From positions 1 through 32,082 of IMG/VR virus record IMGVR_UViG_3300032229_000160: a stretch of DNA of 32,082 nucleotides. One strand, 5' to 3'. This DNA comes from a virus. Every line of letters begins with the position of its first letter. Position 1 is the first letter of the stretch. The translations under genes and the position numbers were made by a program. Below, in pieces: positions 22,040 to 30,979 of the stretch. Under the pieces are notes generated by a model, which was given only the letters and a program-made list of their open reading frames with translations, was not told the origin of the DNA and searched no databases.

Positions 22040-22085
22040 TGTCTAATCTCCCTAGTGGATTGAATTACTGATTACTACAGCCATT

Positions 22086-22114
22086 ATTATGCAGATTATG
22101 TGCCATGCCGTAAA
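22086..22114 (-). promoter_or_regulatory. Leftward promoter candidate (TTTACG-17-CATAAT)
   Basis: Read on the minus strand, TTTACG (22109-22114) and CATAAT (22086-22091) are 17 bases apart and match sigma-70 boxes at 4/6 and 5/6. The predicted transcript begins near 22079, about 40 bases before the first leftward ATG. The dyad cluster lies just upstream of the -35 box. Confidence 0.5.
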
Positions 22115-22134
22115 GCATTATTTTAGGTGTTATG

Positions 22135-22212
22135 TGTAACAGAATGTGTCACATTTTGTGACAGTGTAACTGTTACAGTGTGACACTTATATGGTTACAT
22201 ATATATATATGT
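22135..22212. promoter_or_regulatory. Operator-like cluster of TGTSACA and TGTAAC dyads
   Basis: The stretch contains TGTCACA-TTT-TGTGACA (22147-22163), TGTAAC-T-GTTACA (22165-22177), a further TGTGACA at 22179 and a TGTAAC at 22135. The outer GTGTCACA (22146) and TGTGACAC (22179) also pair. A 16-bp perfect palindrome of AT steps lies at 22197-22212. The cluster is 20-100 bp upstream of the leftward promoter candidate. Confidence 0.6.
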
Positions 22213-22274
22213 CATGTAGGTAATTAGTCTATATGTAATATGGTCAGTATGTTGCGGAAAAGGAAGGATGACAG

Positions 22275-22455: not shown

Positions 22456-22548
22456 TGTGGCGCGCCCCCCAACCAGCTCCCCCCAAAAGTTTTTTACGTT
22501 TTTTGGTATTGTTTGGTTTCTTCGCTGTTCTTCTCGTGGTGAGAGTTT

Positions 22549-22575
22549 GCCCCTGGTTGTCAGGGGCTTTTTTTT
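22549..22575 (+). terminator. Strong Rho-independent terminator
   Basis: GCCCCTG-GTTGT-CAGGGGC is followed by eight T. The stem is 7 bp with six G-C pairs. It acts on rightward transcripts only, as there is no T-run on the other strand. No gene ends upstream on this strand within the window except far away, so it would stop a non-coding transcript or read-through. Confidence 0.9.
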
Positions 22576-22585
22576 CGCCTATGAT
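22557..22585 (+). promoter_or_regulatory. Rightward promoter candidate (TTGTCA-17-TATGAT) overlapping the terminator
   Basis: TTGTCA (22557-22562) and TATGAT (22580-22585) each match the sigma-70 consensus at 5/6, with a 17-base spacer. Transcription would start near 22592, about 20 bases before the ATG at 22613. The -35 box lies in the loop and 3' arm of the terminator, and the spacer contains its T-run. Confidence 0.65.
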
Positions 22586-22612
22586 GATTATGTGGTGATA
22601 GGGAGGTTAGGT

Positions 22613-22843
22613 ATGTATAGTGAGGGTGGTATGGAGATTATGGTTGAAAGAGGTGTGGTGATGCCGCCTAAGTTAGAGAGTCGTTATCCGCATGGGGAGA
22701 TGGAGGTGGGTGACAGCTTTTTTGTGGTGGGTTTAGGGATGCAGGTTGTGCTGAACGCCAACTGGCGGGCGAGTAAGAAGTTGGGGTGGAAGTTTTCAGC
22801 TAGGAAAGAAGGGGATGGTATTAGGGTATGGAGGGTGACATGA
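22613..22843 (+). CDS. Small phage protein with YPxGEMEVGDSF motif (DUF7303-like)
   Basis: The start at 22613 is preceded by GGGAGG. Longer in-frame starts would include the terminator and are rejected. The 76-residue protein has SRYPHGEMEVGDSFFVVGLG, a middle helix (NANWRASKKLGWKFSARKE) and an ending GIRVWRVT. The Y-P-x-x-x-M-x-x-G-D-S-F and (T/R)-x-R-V-W-R pattern is common in phage proteins, and I place it tentatively near DUF7303. It is the first gene of the rightward operon, so it may be regulatory. Confidence 0.6.
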   Translation: MYSEGGMEIMVERGVVMPPKLESRYPHGEMEVGDSFFVVGLGMQVVLNANWRASKKLGWKFSARKEGDGIRVWRVT

Positions 22844-23278: not shown

Positions 23279-24059
23279 ATATTCCGATATTACGGTGGTT
23301 GCCATCTATGGCGATGGGCGAGGGTACATAGCTTTGCCTGCTTTGCAGAAGACTGCGGCAGCACTGCCTGGCAGCAAGCAATTGCTGATTACGAATGTGG
23401 CGGTGCAGACAGATGTGCCACAGAAGTTGGTGGCGCACGGACTGGACTACCATGCGTATTCCGAGTTTGTGCTGTACGGGTTGCATCACTATATCGACAC
23501 GCCGTATGCCTTGATCGTGCAGCACGACGGTTGGGCGTTGAATGGCGATAACTGGCGCGACGAATGGCTGACCTACGACTATGTGGGTGGGCTAACACAC
23601 GCAGCACTAACACCGTATGGCCTCTACAAGACTGCCTATACCTGGTGGGGCGAATCTGATGTCAGGGTTGTGCAGAACGGTGGCTTTAGTTTGCGTAGTA
23701 AGGCAATGCTAGAAGCGCCTTCTAAGTACGGCATCATGCGTAATCAAATGCCTGATGCCATGCTAATGAATGAGGATGTTCAGGTCTGCTGCTTTATGCG
23801 GCCTGCGTTAGAGAATGTTGGCATCCAGTTCTGCCCTGATGAACTCTCTAAGTATTTTTCTTTCGAGCATATTGGTGCGCCCCATGAAGGCATGGACTTG
23901 ACCAAGGTGTTTGGACATCACGCGAGATTTAGACAACTGATTTATGGTGACAAAGTATTGTGGAAACTCACCAGAGAACAGATGGCAAACTTCTTGGGTG
24001 AAGAAGCTGTCTATGATTTGTTTGCTGACCACTACAAATATGAAATGCTAATGGCATGA
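23265..24059 (+). CDS. DUF5672-family protein, probable glycosyltransferase-like
   Basis: The GTG at 23265 has AAGGAG seven bases upstream; an in-frame GTG at 23241 is possible. The 264-residue product has QHDGW (86-90), DEWLTYDYVGGLT, NGGFSLRS (138-145), NED (169-171) and SKYFSFEHIGAPHEG. These are the conserved blocks of DUF5672, which resembles GT-A enzymes. Gene order puts it between small proteins and terminase. It might glycosylate a virion or host component. The donor sugar cannot be read. Confidence 0.75.
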   Translation: MANDRYSDITVVAIYGDGRGYIALPALQKTAAALPGSKQLLITNVAVQTDVPQKLVAHGLDYHAYSEFVLYGLHHYIDTPYALIVQHDGWALNGDNWRDEWLTYDYVGGLTHAALTPYGLYKTAYTWWGESDVRVVQNGGFSLRSKAMLEAPSKYGIMRNQMPDAMLMNEDVQVCCFMRPALENVGIQFCPDELSKYFSFEHIGAPHEGMDLTKVFGHHARFRQLIYGDKVLWKLTREQMANFLGEEAVYDLFADHYKYEMLMA

Positions 24060-25822
24060 AATTTAATCTCGCGCAGTTTTACAAGTTCTGTTCGCAACTA
24101 AAGATTGAAACTAAAGAACAGGGCTTGAAGAAGATGGATGTGCTGCTAGGCACACAAACGTATGTGATGGATGAGATCAACAGAGGATTGGCTGAAGACA
24201 TCCACTTCTTTGTGATCCTAAAGGGGCGGCAGCTTGGCATCACAACTATTTCTTTGGCTTTAGACCTTTACTGGCACTTTATACACAATGGACTACAAGG
24301 CACACTCACCACAGACACAGAAGAAAACCGAGATATGTTCCGGTCAACCCTTGCCATGTACATGGAAGGTTTACCTAAAGAGTGGCGCATCCCGCTTCTT
24401 GCCCACAACCGGAATCAGCTTCAACTCAAGAATAGAAGCCGCCTCTTTTATCAAGTCGCGGGGCTTAGAGCAAAAGGCTCACTTGGTCGCGGTAAGGCCA
24501 TCACGTTTCTACACGGAACAGAAACTTCGTCCTGGGGTGATGAAGAAGGACTAGCATCATTGCTAGCGTCTTTGGCTGAAACCAACCCGAATCGTTTGTA
24601 CATCTTCGAGTCCACTGCGCGTGGCTTTAATATGTTCCACGATATGTACGTCACCGCGAAACGCGCTAAGACACAAAGAGCAATCTTCTGTGGCTGGTGG
24701 CGTAACCAGTTTTATTCCGTGGACGCCAACTCACAGATTTACAAAGTCTATTGGGATGGCAAGTTAACGCCTGAAGAAAAAGAATGGACACGCGACATTA
24801 AGAAACTCTACGACGTAGAGATCAATAGCAGACAGATGGCGTGGTGGCGTTGGAAGCTGCATGAGGGCATCAAGGATGATGCGTTGATGTATCAGGAGTT
24901 CCCACCGACTGAAGACTATGCGTTCATCATGACGGGTACGTCGTTCTTCTCGAACGCCCGTTGTACGGACATGATGAAGATTGCTAAGAAGATTGGTTGC
25001 GACTATTACCGCTACAGCATGGGCGCAAACTTCTTAGATACAGAAGTGGTGAAGTCTACTGAACGCCTGGCAACTCTGAAGATATGGGAGGAACCCGTTG
25101 ATACGGCTTATTACGTTATTGGCGCAGACCCTGCTTATGGCAGTTCTGATTGGGCTGATCGTTTTTGCATACAAGTCTTCCGTTGCTACGCTGACGGTAT
25201 GGAGCAGGTTGCAGAGTTTGCGACACCGGAGATGAACACCTATCAGTTCGCGTGGGTGATTGCCCACCTTGCTGGTGCTTACAAGAACTCGACACTTAAC
25301 CTTGAGGTCAATGGCCCTGGTCAGGCAGTCATCAATGAACTGAGAAACTTGAAACGACAGGCTGCGACATTAACTGGTCAACAAGGCCATGACTTGATGA
25401 ACGTGCTAGGTAGCATGAGCAACTACATCTGGCGGCGTAACGATACGTTAGGCGGTATCAGTAACAGCATCGGCTGGATTACGACATCACAGACTAAAGA
25501 GCGAATGCTGTCGTACATGAAGGATTACTTTGAGCGCAACATGATGGCGGTTTACTCGACAGAGTTGATTGATGAGATGAAGACCATTGTGCGTGATGGT
25601 TCTAGCATTGAAGCAACAGGTAGAAACAAAGATGATCGTGTGATGGCTGCTGCTTTGGCTTGCGCGGCATTTGCCGAGCAGGTTCAGCCTAAGTTGATCA
25701 ACATGAAGATCACCCGCGAGATGAGCAGAAAGACGGATGACATGACGCCAGAGCAGGTAGCGGTGGGCAGGAACGTATCGGATTACTTGAAAAGGATTGG
25801 TATTTATGGAGGCAATGCGTGA
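24056..25822 (+). CDS. terL: Terminase large subunit
   Basis: The 588-residue protein has an ATPase part with a Walker A-like G57-R-Q-L-G-I-T-T64 and a Walker B region with acidic E156 (ITFLHGTE). The C-terminal nuclease has D358 (VIGADPAYGSSDWADRFCIQ), E417 (NLEVNGPG) and D526/D527 (NKDDRVMAAALA). These are the two-domain features of large terminases, which pump DNA into the procapsid and cut the concatemer. The length is typical. The ATG overlaps the previous stop by four bases and its stop overlaps the next GTG. Which small subunit it uses is not certain. Confidence 0.93.
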   Translation: MKFNLAQFYKFCSQLKIETKEQGLKKMDVLLGTQTYVMDEINRGLAEDIHFFVILKGRQLGITTISLALDLYWHFIHNGLQGTLTTDTEENRDMFRSTLAMYMEGLPKEWRIPLLAHNRNQLQLKNRSRLFYQVAGLRAKGSLGRGKAITFLHGTETSSWGDEEGLASLLASLAETNPNRLYIFESTARGFNMFHDMYVTAKRAKTQRAIFCGWWRNQFYSVDANSQIYKVYWDGKLTPEEKEWTRDIKKLYDVEINSRQMAWWRWKLHEGIKDDALMYQEFPPTEDYAFIMTGTSFFSNARCTDMMKIAKKIGCDYYRYSMGANFLDTEVVKSTERLATLKIWEEPVDTAYYVIGADPAYGSSDWADRFCIQVFRCYADGMEQVAEFATPEMNTYQFAWVIAHLAGAYKNSTLNLEVNGPGQAVINELRNLKRQAATLTGQQGHDLMNVLGSMSNYIWRRNDTLGGISNSIGWITTSQTKERMLSYMKDYFERNMMAVYSTELIDEMKTIVRDGSSIEATGRNKDDRVMAAALACAAFAEQVQPKLINMKITREMSRKTDDMTPEQVAVGRNVSDYLKRIGIYGGNA

Positions 25823-26213: not shown

Positions 26214-26696
26214 ATGGGAATATTGCGTGATTATCATTGTCAGACACACGGATACTTTGAGTCGTTTGACGCCAAGTGTCCGATGAAAAGCTGTGATGAA
26301 GAAGTGTCTATCGTGCATCTTCAGCCGGTTGGTTTAAAGTCTGATAAGACTAAACACAATGACAAGACGCTAAGTCAGCTAGCGATGGACTTCGATATGA
26401 CGGACATCAAGTCGGTGCGCGAGGGCGAAAGTCAGTCGGGTTATCTCACCCGCAACAACAAGACGCCACCGGAAGCGCCAAGAGAGCAGCGGCCTGGTGA
26501 CGCTGTGATGTGGGGCAATACGTCCGGCACTCGCTGGAATCTGGACAGCCTAGTGAAGGGCAATGGTTATCGTTCTATTAACGGTGAATCCGTGGGCGTG
26601 AACCCTAAAGACCTAGGTAACTTGACAGCACCCAAGGCTGCGAGTTATATAGCCGATCATGACAACCTGCAAATAAATCCAAATGCGGATACCTAG
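26214..26696 (+). CDS. Zinc-ribbon-like phage protein before portal
   Basis: The ATG at 26214 is preferred over 26208 because AAGGGG lies eight bases upstream. The 160-residue protein begins MGILRDYHCQTHGYFESFDA and has C9, H12, C22 and C27, which can bind zinc. The rest is hydrophilic and probably disordered, with PREQRPGDAVMWGNTSGTRW. It overlaps the portal start by 14 bases. Such N-terminal zinc modules occur near phage packaging genes, with an unknown role. Confidence 0.6.
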   Translation: MGILRDYHCQTHGYFESFDAKCPMKSCDEEVSIVHLQPVGLKSDKTKHNDKTLSQLAMDFDMTDIKSVREGESQSGYLTRNNKTPPEAPREQRPGDAVMWGNTSGTRWNLDSLVKGNGYRSINGESVGVNPKDLGNLTAPKAASYIADHDNLQINPNADT

Positions 26697-28308
26697 CAAC
26701 CCAGTACACCGTGAGGAGTTCTATCTGGACTTGATCCAGAAGTGCTTTGTGTCACGGGAGGAGCGCAAGGCTGATTACTCCGCACTTCGATCCTACTATT
26801 TGTTTGGCTCAGCGCCGGAAGAATCACCGGCGCTTTTTAACAAGATTTTTCCGCACATTGATCAGCTAACGTCATTCCTGTATTCCGCAGAAACGACACG
26901 CTTTACCATCAACATCGGCGCAGAGGTCAATCCTCAGGAACACCGGAAGATTCCGGTACTGACCAACAAGCTGAACGATGAATGGCTAAACAGCAACTGC
27001 GATCAAGTCTTCTCGACCGCCCTAACTTGGGCGCTGTGCTTTGGCACAACCTACGTCAAGCTGATCGTCAATAATGGCGTCCATCCGTATATGGTGGAAC
27101 CGTCTTCTATTGGCGTGTTGCGTGAGGATGTGGTCTACACGGATCGTCAAGAAGCAATAGCGCAGACCTATTACATTACCAAGTCGGAACTCTACGCTCG
27201 TCTGTACTCGCATCCCAAGCGCGATGAGATTGTCAAACGGGTAACGTCTTCTTACCAGCCGCAGCAACTCGACATCCCTGATGGCATTGACCGCATCATT
27301 ATGTCGCAGACCAACCCGACCATGACCGGCACAGTCAACCTAGACCTGTCCGGCATGAACCGCTACAAGGCACGGGTAGCTGAAGATACGGTAGAGATGA
27401 CGGAACTGTGGGTCTGGAACGATGACACGCTGGACTACCAAGTAGTCACTATTGCCGAACCAGACGTCATCATCTATGACCGACCAGGTGAGCAAGTCTT
27501 CCTAAAGGGTGAACTGCCATTCGTGCAACTCTGTCCTAACCCCATGTACGACTATTATTGGGGTCAGAGCGAAGTTCAGCGGTTGGTGTTCTTGCAGTCA
27601 TTGCGGAACAAGCGCATGACCGAGATTTTGGACTTGCTGTCTAAACAAGTTAATCCACCGACAGCGTTGATTGGCTTTACCGGCATTCTGGATGAGAAGA
27701 ACTTTGCGTTGAATCGGGCAGGCGGTTTGCTGGCAACCGATATGCCGAACGCCAAAGTTGAGAAGATGGCTCCAAATATGCCAGGCGATCTTTTCGAGGT
27801 GATCCGTGAAGTGGATCAGATGTTCGCGGAAGCGTCAGGTATTACAAGCGTACTATCAGGCAGAGGGGAAACCGGCGTCAGAAGCCAAGGTCATGCCTCC
27901 CAACTCGCCCGACTCGGCTCCTCCAGAGCAAAAAAACGTGCGCTCGTCATTGAAGATAGTCTGGAAAAAGTAGCAACGCTCTACCTAAAACTGATTCAAG
28001 CCTACGATGACACCAAGCTAAAAGATTCAGAAGGCTTGTCATTTATACCAGAACAGTTTACAAAAAACTATGTGGTGAAGGTAGACGCGCATTCCAACAG
28101 CCCGATCTTTACTGAAGACCTACGTCAACTGGCCTTCAATATGTTTAAGGCTGGCGCTATCGACAAAGAATCTCTGATAGATTTGCTAGAACCGCCGATG
28201 AAGCAGTTGTTGAAAGAGAAACTAAAGCGCATGGAAGCAAAACAAGCGCAGCAGCCTCAACAGCAACCGCAGCAAGGTAAACCTGACTTGAAAGCAGTGG
28301 GGGAATAA
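26683..28308 (+). CDS. Portal protein
   Basis: The 541-residue protein follows the terminase block. It has IFPHIDQLTSFLYSAETTRF, a long mixed middle with SEVQRLVFLQSLRNKRMTEI, and a helical wing with GITSVLSGRGETGVRSQGHA and ASQLARLGSSRAKKRALVIE, a hallmark of phage portal subunits. The end is Gln-rich and probably disordered. Portal dodecamers form the DNA entry vertex, nucleate the capsid and bind the terminase. Its stop shares a base with the next ATG. Confidence 0.85.
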   Translation: MRIPSNPVHREEFYLDLIQKCFVSREERKADYSALRSYYLFGSAPEESPALFNKIFPHIDQLTSFLYSAETTRFTINIGAEVNPQEHRKIPVLTNKLNDEWLNSNCDQVFSTALTWALCFGTTYVKLIVNNGVHPYMVEPSSIGVLREDVVYTDRQEAIAQTYYITKSELYARLYSHPKRDEIVKRVTSSYQPQQLDIPDGIDRIIMSQTNPTMTGTVNLDLSGMNRYKARVAEDTVEMTELWVWNDDTLDYQVVTIAEPDVIIYDRPGEQVFLKGELPFVQLCPNPMYDYYWGQSEVQRLVFLQSLRNKRMTEILDLLSKQVNPPTALIGFTGILDEKNFALNRAGGLLATDMPNAKVEKMAPNMPGDLFEVIREVDQMFAEASGITSVLSGRGETGVRSQGHASQLARLGSSRAKKRALVIEDSLEKVATLYLKLIQAYDDTKLKDSEGLSFIPEQFTKNYVVKVDAHSNSPIFTEDLRQLAFNMFKAGAIDKESLIDLLEPPMKQLLKEKLKRMEAKQAQQPQQQPQQGKPDLKAVGE

Positions 28309-29977: not shown

Positions 29978-30979
29978 ATGCCTATTGGTGGCGGTATTCT
30001 TCCGGCAACGGGTAGTACGCAATTTACGGAACTAACTTACGTTACCCGTAGAGCGTTTATCCCGAAGCTGGTCGTACAACTCTATAACTCAACACCGCTG
30101 ATGGCGGCTCTGATTGCTAACTCGCAACAGGCTTCCGGTGGTGTTTCTTCTGTAACCGTTCCCGTCCAGGGTTCTCAGTTCGTAAACGCTCAGTGGTCAG
30201 ACTACAGCGGCTCGTTCGCTCAACCGTCTGTTCAGCAGGGTGCTTACAACGCTGAATTTAACCTGAAGCTAATGATTGCTCCAGTACCGTTTCTCGGTAT
30301 GGAAGGTGCAGTTCAGCAAGACGCAGCTATCATTCCTCTGATCGAAGCGCGTATGAACGACGCGACCAACGTGATGATGGATGCAATGGCTACCGCCCTG
30401 TACACCAACACGACGAACACGCAACAGTTTACTGGCCTACCGGCTGCTGTTTCCTCGTCGGGTACTTACGGTAACATCAACCGTTCAACCTATAGCTGGT
30501 GGCAGTCGAAAGAGTATGCCGCTGGTTCGGTTAACCCAACCCGTCAGAACATCCTCCAGTACATCAGCGGAACCGTGAAGAACGGCGCTGAAGTGCCATC
30601 GTTTGGTGTTTGCGGTTTCGGTACTTGGACTTTGTTGGCTCAAGACTTTGTTGGTCAAGAGCAATACATGATCACCCCAGGTAACGGTTTCGATGGTGAC
30701 GCTAATGGCCCTCAAGCCGCATTCCGTGCGCTGATGGTTGCTGGTGTGCCAATTTATCCTGATCCTTATTGCCCTGAAGGTACTGTCTACTTCCTGAACA
30801 GCAACTACCTGTCGCTCTACATCCATGAGCAGGGTTCGTTTGTGTTCACGGGCTTTGAATCGACCCTTCCGAACTGGCAGATTGGCTACGTTGGCGCAGT
30901 GCTGACGATTGCTGAATTGGTCAATACGAAGCCTAAGTCGATGACCAAGGTCACGGGCTACAACTCTCTGACACTGTAA
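29978..30979 (+). CDS. Major capsid protein
   Basis: The 333-residue protein begins MPIGGGILPATGSTQFTELT and has RMNDATNVMMDAMATALYTN, the long helix expected for an HK97-fold spine. Further parts are SFGVCGFGTWTLLAQDFVGQ and FRALMVAGVPIYPDPYCPEG, with a closing VGAVLTIAELVNTKPKSMTK. Place after scaffold and portal, length and composition are as for a capsid shell protein. GGAG precedes the ATG. No N-terminal delta domain or protease gene is seen, in line with a separate scaffold. Confidence 0.82.
   Translation: MPIGGGILPATGSTQFTELTYVTRRAFIPKLVVQLYNSTPLMAALIANSQQASGGVSSVTVPVQGSQFVNAQWSDYSGSFAQPSVQQGAYNAEFNLKLMIAPVPFLGMEGAVQQDAAIIPLIEARMNDATNVMMDAMATALYTNTTNTQQFTGLPAAVSSSGTYGNINRSTYSWWQSKEYAAGSVNPTRQNILQYISGTVKNGAEVPSFGVCGFGTWTLLAQDFVGQEQYMITPGNGFDGDANGPQAAFRALMVAGVPIYPDPYCPEGTVYFLNSNYLSLYIHEQGSFVFTGFESTLPNWQIGYVGAVLTIAELVNTKPKSMTKVTGYNSLTL

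Follow-up and report, generated by a model that had tools for sequence, protein, structure and literature searches.

The window, the whole 32,082-base linear virus record analysed here, belongs to a tailed phage from a freshwater phage family and carries two oppositely oriented sets of genes. The early genes, which encode a RecE-like exonuclease, a RecT-like annealing protein, SSB and a DNA methyltransferase, are leftward and lie between 15428 and 22039, and the genes for TerL, portal and capsid are rightward in an operon that begins at 22613. The intergenic region that separates the leftward early genes from the rightward virion operon contains a predicted terminator-promoter element (Table 1). 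The 76-aa product of the first operon ORF matches no PHROGs family and shows a weak, sub-threshold resemblance to DUF7303; its homologues directly follow the element in relatives. At the other side of the intergenic region, the AT-rich stretch 22085-22215, which holds palindrome TGTCACATTTTGTGACA and TATATATATA, is probably the leftward early promoter/operator region.

Table 1. Features of the intergenic region and of the rightward operon in the window
Feature	Position	Strand	Basis
Conserved block GCGCGCCCC-N9-TCCCCCCAAAAG, candidate packaging (cos) site	22460-22489	+	Present in almost every relative, also in terminator-less clades
Extended -10 TG-G-TATTGT, putative leader promoter P1	22504-22512	+	TGNTANNNT at constant spacing to the block
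Predicted leader RNA, about 57 nt, putative start	22519-22575	+	C/U-rich 5' part, hairpin before the terminator
Terminator hairpin GCCCCTGGTTGTCAGGGGC	22549-22567	+	Letters, fold, stem covariation in relatives
-35 box of P2, TTGTCA	22557-22562	+	TTG in 28/30 distinct composite hairpins with differing stems
T8 tract of the terminator, also within the P2 spacer	22568-22575	+	Letters; T6-T8 in relatives
-10 box of P2, TATGAT	22580-22585	+	Equivalents at equal spacing in relatives
Ribosome-binding site GGGAGG	22601-22606	+	Letters
First ORF of the rightward operon (ATG at 22613), 76 aa, function unknown	22613-22843	+	ORF list
Terminase large subunit (TerL)	24056-25822	+	PHROG 2, E 2e-16
Portal protein	26683-28308	+	PHROG 1216, E 2e-12
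Major capsid protein	29978-30979	+	PHROG 9953, E 5e-34

The hairpin of the element has the makeup of an intrinsic terminator, with a G+C-rich stem of 7 bp, a short loop of 5 nt and a U tract. Its RNA folds at -14.5 kcal/mol (z -3.35), and it ranks first among the terminators of the 16 kb scanned on both strands when these are judged by G-C pairs and T-run. TTGT of the P2 -35 box is located in the loop, CA in the 3' arm, and the 17-bp spacer (22563-22579) is made up of 3' arm, T tract and CGCC, which gives P2 the two hexamers about 17 bp apart that define a sigma-70-type promoter. The sequence-only reading had identified the hairpin and its eight T as a terminator, which is correct to the base, and had placed TTGTCA in the loop and 3' arm, which the fold confirms. 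P2 matches the promoter consensus at 10/12 positions and ties for the best promoter in the same 16-kb scan of both strands. However, shuffled sequences yield about as many promoter-like sites overall (18.2) as the scanned region does (17), and thus the P2 match alone proves nothing and conservation in relatives had to decide. Across the whole window, promoter sites of at least 10/12 number only three, and one of the three strong hairpins has such a promoter in this geometry, against 0.05 with the -10 box displaced.

Because a DNA search of the element region against phage records gave zero matches, relatives from IMG/VR were used. A TerL search provided 80 relatives at 80-100% identity, two further TerL queries were run, and additional relatives were collected with a pattern for the upstream conserved block, a procedure that is unbiased towards terminator or promoter. 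TerL relatives also turn up in two MAGs from freshwater, an alphaproteobacterial and a betaproteobacterial one; the contigs concerned may be phage contigs placed there by binning. Many relatives carry a hairpin and T run before the operon, with CTTGT or TTG in the loop, and terminator and promoter occur together at -700 to -2150 from TerL. Of the 43 hairpins that follow the packaging block, 29 have a promoter that matches at 8/12 positions or more in this arrangement (-35 inside the hairpin, -10 16-18 bp on), compared with 8 of 95 hairpins elsewhere in the same contigs; to judge by sequence, these 8 are all copies of the element, from contigs whose block is cut off or unrecognised. The stem shows two-sided changes at all 7 pairs across 23 relatives, with 80.5% of cells paired (58.5% in shuffles) and 44 two-sided changes (18.5 in shuffles). 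Such covariation argues that the stem is maintained as an RNA structure.

The promoter spacing is conserved along with the stem. The remainder of the arm (4-7), the T run (6-8) and the linker (3-5) vary in a compensating manner; in 26 of the 30 distinct hairpins, a set pre-selected for a spacing of 16-18, they add up to 17 bp. In an unselected test, the best -10 within about 30 nt is positioned at exactly 17 in 19 of 33 TTG hairpins, and in five others the best match is a TATATT 9 bp past a TATAGT at 17. A -10 box occupies the expected place in 26 of 32 TTG hairpins and in 2 of 9 others (hand-tallied; Fisher p 0.002, which, like the other p-values from the relatives, is optimistic because their sequences are related and not independent). 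Hairpins that lack TTG, mostly with UUCG-type loops (L017, L019, L199, L056), have their -10 15-26 nt past the T run, and in the clade of L031, L034, L053 and L062 the best -10 is displaced although CTTGT stays in the loop. At the conserved spacing, the relatives present TATGAT, TATCAT, TATAGT, TATACT, TATAAT or TAGTAT. Their -35 hexamers are often poor beyond TTG (TTGTGG and TTGCGG, 3/6), and given these hexamers a P2-type promoter may be moderate or in need of help. Because the stem covaries while the spacing is fixed, pairing and promoter spacing act as two independent constraints on the same bases. The near-consensus promoter that the earlier reading had proposed, with TATGAT after a 17-bp spacer, holds in its boxes and its spacing, and so does the claim that the terminator and the promoter of the rightward operon share one sequence; each of the two is conserved by a sequence constraint of its own.

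What would the terminator terminate? No rightward gene ends upstream of the hairpin, and the sole rightward transcription evident there is a short leader RNA, predicted from its own conserved promoter. In most relatives that carry the terminator, the P1 motif TGNTANNNT follows the block at a distance of 15-17 or about 25 nt. P1 and terminator tend to co-occur, with 28 relatives having both, 7 and 16 having a single one and 35 having neither (Fisher p 1e-5, uncorrected for relatedness). Since P1 and terminator occur together, the leader RNA is the simplest thing to be terminated at the hairpin. The block that precedes P1 is a candidate cos site by its position upstream of the terminase and its composition. 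In its general form, GYGCGYGCCCC-N9-TCCCCCCAWAAAA, the block precedes the terminase operon in almost every relative (L001-L274), far clades included.

The layout is also found outside this phage group. A pattern search retrieved the composite GCCCCGCCCTTGTGGCGGGG-T8-GCTC-TATATT in some 35 contigs (L277-L340; e.g. L284:11602-11680), in which homology to the TerL, portal and capsid proteins of the window is not detectable. In this second group, a gene with a sigma-70 region 4 domain precedes the composite, which is followed by an operon that includes a methyltransferase and a terminase-small-like gene; the start codon is so near the -10 box that the mRNA would be almost leaderless. An upstream hairpin with a UUUACUCCUCC loop is also present in this group. 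In Lactococcus phage WRP3 (L575, 55001-95000), 7 of 18 hairpins in 40 kb are composite, against a control of 0.85; their promoters match at 10-12 of 12 positions, with a near-consensus -35 in the hairpin and TATAAT 17 bp on. The cyanophage P-TIM68 of Prochlorococcus has three composites in 47 kb, and Staphylococcus phage PT1-4 has one, at 12/12. For T5 and for RB49 (1-50000 in the latter), 50 kb of each genome was scanned and contained no composite. Among viruses at large, T8-spacer promoters carry a hairpin in 20 of 86 distinct cases at 17 bp and in 8 of 63 at 27 bp (p 0.14), and TTGAC is present in 14 of 20 such hairpins at 17 bp and in 1 of 8 at 27 bp (p 0.011). A general enrichment of hairpins in T8-spacer promoters (25/98 vs 0.5 in shuffles) was considered and rejected, as it mostly disappears against the controls, namely T8 tracts in general (hairpin-preceded in 106/777) and the 27-bp spacer, from which only the quality of the -35 box separates these promoters. 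The individual occurrences indicate that the layout recurs independently in unrelated phages.

We propose that the element is probably a dual-function terminator-promoter that ends the leader RNA and starts the terminase/virion operon. The leader RNA would start at the extended -10 promoter P1, just past the candidate packaging site, and would end at the intrinsic terminator (22549-22575), and the hairpin loop and 3' arm would serve as the -35 box of the sigma-70-type promoter P2 for the operon. Because the termination site falls between the -35 and -10 boxes, two polymerases could not occupy the element simultaneously, and the polymerase finishing the leader and the polymerase bound to P2 would be mutually exclusive on the DNA. 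Such mutual exclusion would shield the operon from leader read-through and would make the two transcription units exclude each other in time. The most likely job of the element is to accommodate the leader end and the late-operon start in minimal space, and the overlap may provide insulation or coupling. Upstream transcription would have opposite consequences under these two effects, which sequence alone is unable to tell apart. At the level of sequence, the comparisons establish the anatomy of the element, show that both constraints conserve it, and show it to be a module that only some relatives carry (see below); both signals presumably work in cells.

The overlap could instead be an accident, in which TTG-rich loops are merely good terminator loops of the CUUG or UUCG type and the -10 box is coincidental. 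Single promoter matches do occur at chance frequency, and the wider virus scan shows no significant excess of hairpins at a spacing of 17 bp. An accident is nevertheless very unlikely, given that the spacing stays at 17 though its parts vary, that the -10 position is lost with the UUCG loop and that the geometry is absent at other terminators of the same contigs. The element thus appears to be a real compact design, beyond a chance accident of one genome. Palindromes across -35 boxes are typical operators, and the inverted repeat could accordingly be an operator at which a dimeric regulator covers the -35 box, and not a terminator; we regard this as very improbable, since between relatives the stem sequence is wholly replaced without loss of pairing, and the T6-T8 run is invariably one-sided, placed after the stem.

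Two further explanations address the history of the element and the route by which transcription reaches the late genes. L035 and the relatives L037, L039 and L050 share a common operon start with and without the module, respectively; L063 and L065 have the downstream part in common and different hairpins; and L008, L051, L072, L074 and L246 have two tandem hairpins, the second of which bears the promoter. These with/without pairs, swapped hairpins and tandem hairpins make the unit optional and apparently exchangeable, and relatives without it keep a promoter-like sequence at the site, often an extended -10, in the configurations inspected. Leader-plus-terminator cassettes could therefore have been gained, swapped and lost at the boundary between T tract and -10 box, with a TTG-bringing terminator being kept because it restores the promoter. 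We hold such shuffling to be possible, if rather unlikely; it accounts for origin and not for function and is compatible with the dual-function explanation. In phage lambda, the late genes are preceded by pR'-6S RNA-tR', in which a short RNA with its own promoter ends at an intrinsic terminator, and their expression needs read-through mediated by Q. The leader and terminator of the window could be counterparts of 6S RNA and tR', with antiterminator read-through from P1 feeding the late genes and P2 being basal only. The predicted anatomy, in which a promoter-proximal short RNA with its own conserved promoter would end at a strong terminator directly before the terminase operon, resembles the lambda gate, and the GCCCCGCCCTTGTGGCGGGG composite likewise follows a sigma-70 region 4 gene and opens an operon with methyltransferase and terminase-small-like genes. 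However, lambda late genes lack their own promoter, whereas here a dedicated promoter is conserved past the terminator and overlaps it, and a promoter is still present there where the terminator is missing (L037, L039, L050). Moreover, no antiterminator gene was recognised and no Q-type family match was obtained among the early ORFs tried, although most small early ORFs are without assignment. A lambda-like gate therefore seems unlikely to us.

A further reading is a hand-over, in which the polymerase that ends the leader stays in the T tract, which is the P2 spacer, rebinds sigma and starts the virion operon, such that leader transcription primes late transcription rather than blocking it, a design that phages would have reached repeatedly. 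In vitro, polymerase can stay on the DNA after the RNA end and restart at a nearby promoter, as observed for 37% of terminations in one assay and 55% with added sigma (PMC6978380), and post-termination recycling has been proposed to couple adjoining promoters (PMC11347151). Because of this in vitro restart, such a hand-over is conceivable, though unsupported here, and we consider it quite unlikely. Recycling is an in vitro biochemical process and not a sequence element, and what the element would share with it is the restart at a promoter near the termination site (PMC6978380, PMC11347151).

Several known systems combine a hairpin with a promoter in other ways. The T5 genome (AY543070) resembles the window in that annotated terminator and promoter spans overlap, e.g. 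at P10a, and differs from it in that the hexamers lie outside the hairpin, without a composite in 50 kb. At the meningococcal cbbA-fHbp locus, an intrinsic terminator is located upstream of a dedicated promoter, and read-through and promoter both feed the gene; unlike in the window, terminator and promoter appear to be separate (PMC8026042). The closest match in organization is offered by T4-type phages, although it differs in number and position. RB49 and phi1 reportedly contain promoter-early stem-loop cassettes (PeSLs, said to have been described by Arbiol et al. in 2010) in many copies at early genes. The window element likewise joins a sigma-70-like promoter to a stem-loop terminator in a small, apparently exchangeable cassette, and the swapped and tandem hairpins of the relatives may reflect an exchange of the PeSL type; unlike PeSLs, the window has one composite, at the virion operon and with the -35 box inside the hairpin. 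Hairpins of the T4 genes I-TevI, soc and e overlap late promoters. There, as here, one region is both an RNA hairpin and a promoter region, but the T4 hairpins block translation (PMC2988022), whereas the window hairpin would terminate transcription. An open-access literature search returned no description of a -35 box inside a terminator loop. Terminator-promoter cassettes as such are already known, and the element appears to be new in having its -35 box inside the terminator hairpin.

These observations imply that the same bases can hold both an intrinsic terminator and a sigma-70 promoter over long evolution and in several unrelated phages. Elements of this kind would escape annotation tools that handle the two signal types separately. 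Should terminator and promoter interact, the element would offer a natural and compact system for studying their coupling as well as post-termination polymerase recycling. According to PMC11347151, recycling has yet to be demonstrated in vivo, and the authors of that paper expected it to be of minor importance for phages that bring their own polymerases.

The predicted leader RNA shows further features of a small RNA. In relatives it extends up to about 90 nt, or longer with inserts; the leader hairpin that precedes the terminator covaries, and a CCUUCUGUG-like stretch is conserved in the leader of one clade. An Rfam search gave no match at the gathering threshold. The best resemblance in several relatives is to the betaproteobacterial anti-hemB sRNA (RF02837), below its gathering score of 49.5, with 29.7 bits for L034 (E 5e-5 for 501 bases), 23.6-26.6 for five others and 20.2 for the window. 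The leader thus appears sRNA-like, yet outside the anti-hemB family. Because its complementarity to the translation starts of the window is below the shuffled level, we do not propose a base-pairing target. Relatives also contain, upstream of the terminator, an RNA module of the form ACGCATGAGGATTG-(variable 30-105 nt)-CAGTCCTCAGTCGTGTTGG, without an Rfam match, whose constant ends pair as a stem with a fixed internal loop round variable interiors (L034:3723, L030:2776, L062:3764, L065:225, L199:372, L015:6 and 200, L046:745, L053:1086, L014:135, L031:219, L292:1902, L281:8004, L019:3502). The module is clearly past the leader promoter in L030, L034, L062, L065 and L199, is present in two copies in some phages and is possibly a new structured RNA family. 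In L030 and L202, an ORF with HNH-endonuclease-like Cys motifs, read from the sequence, separates the packaging block from the leader region.
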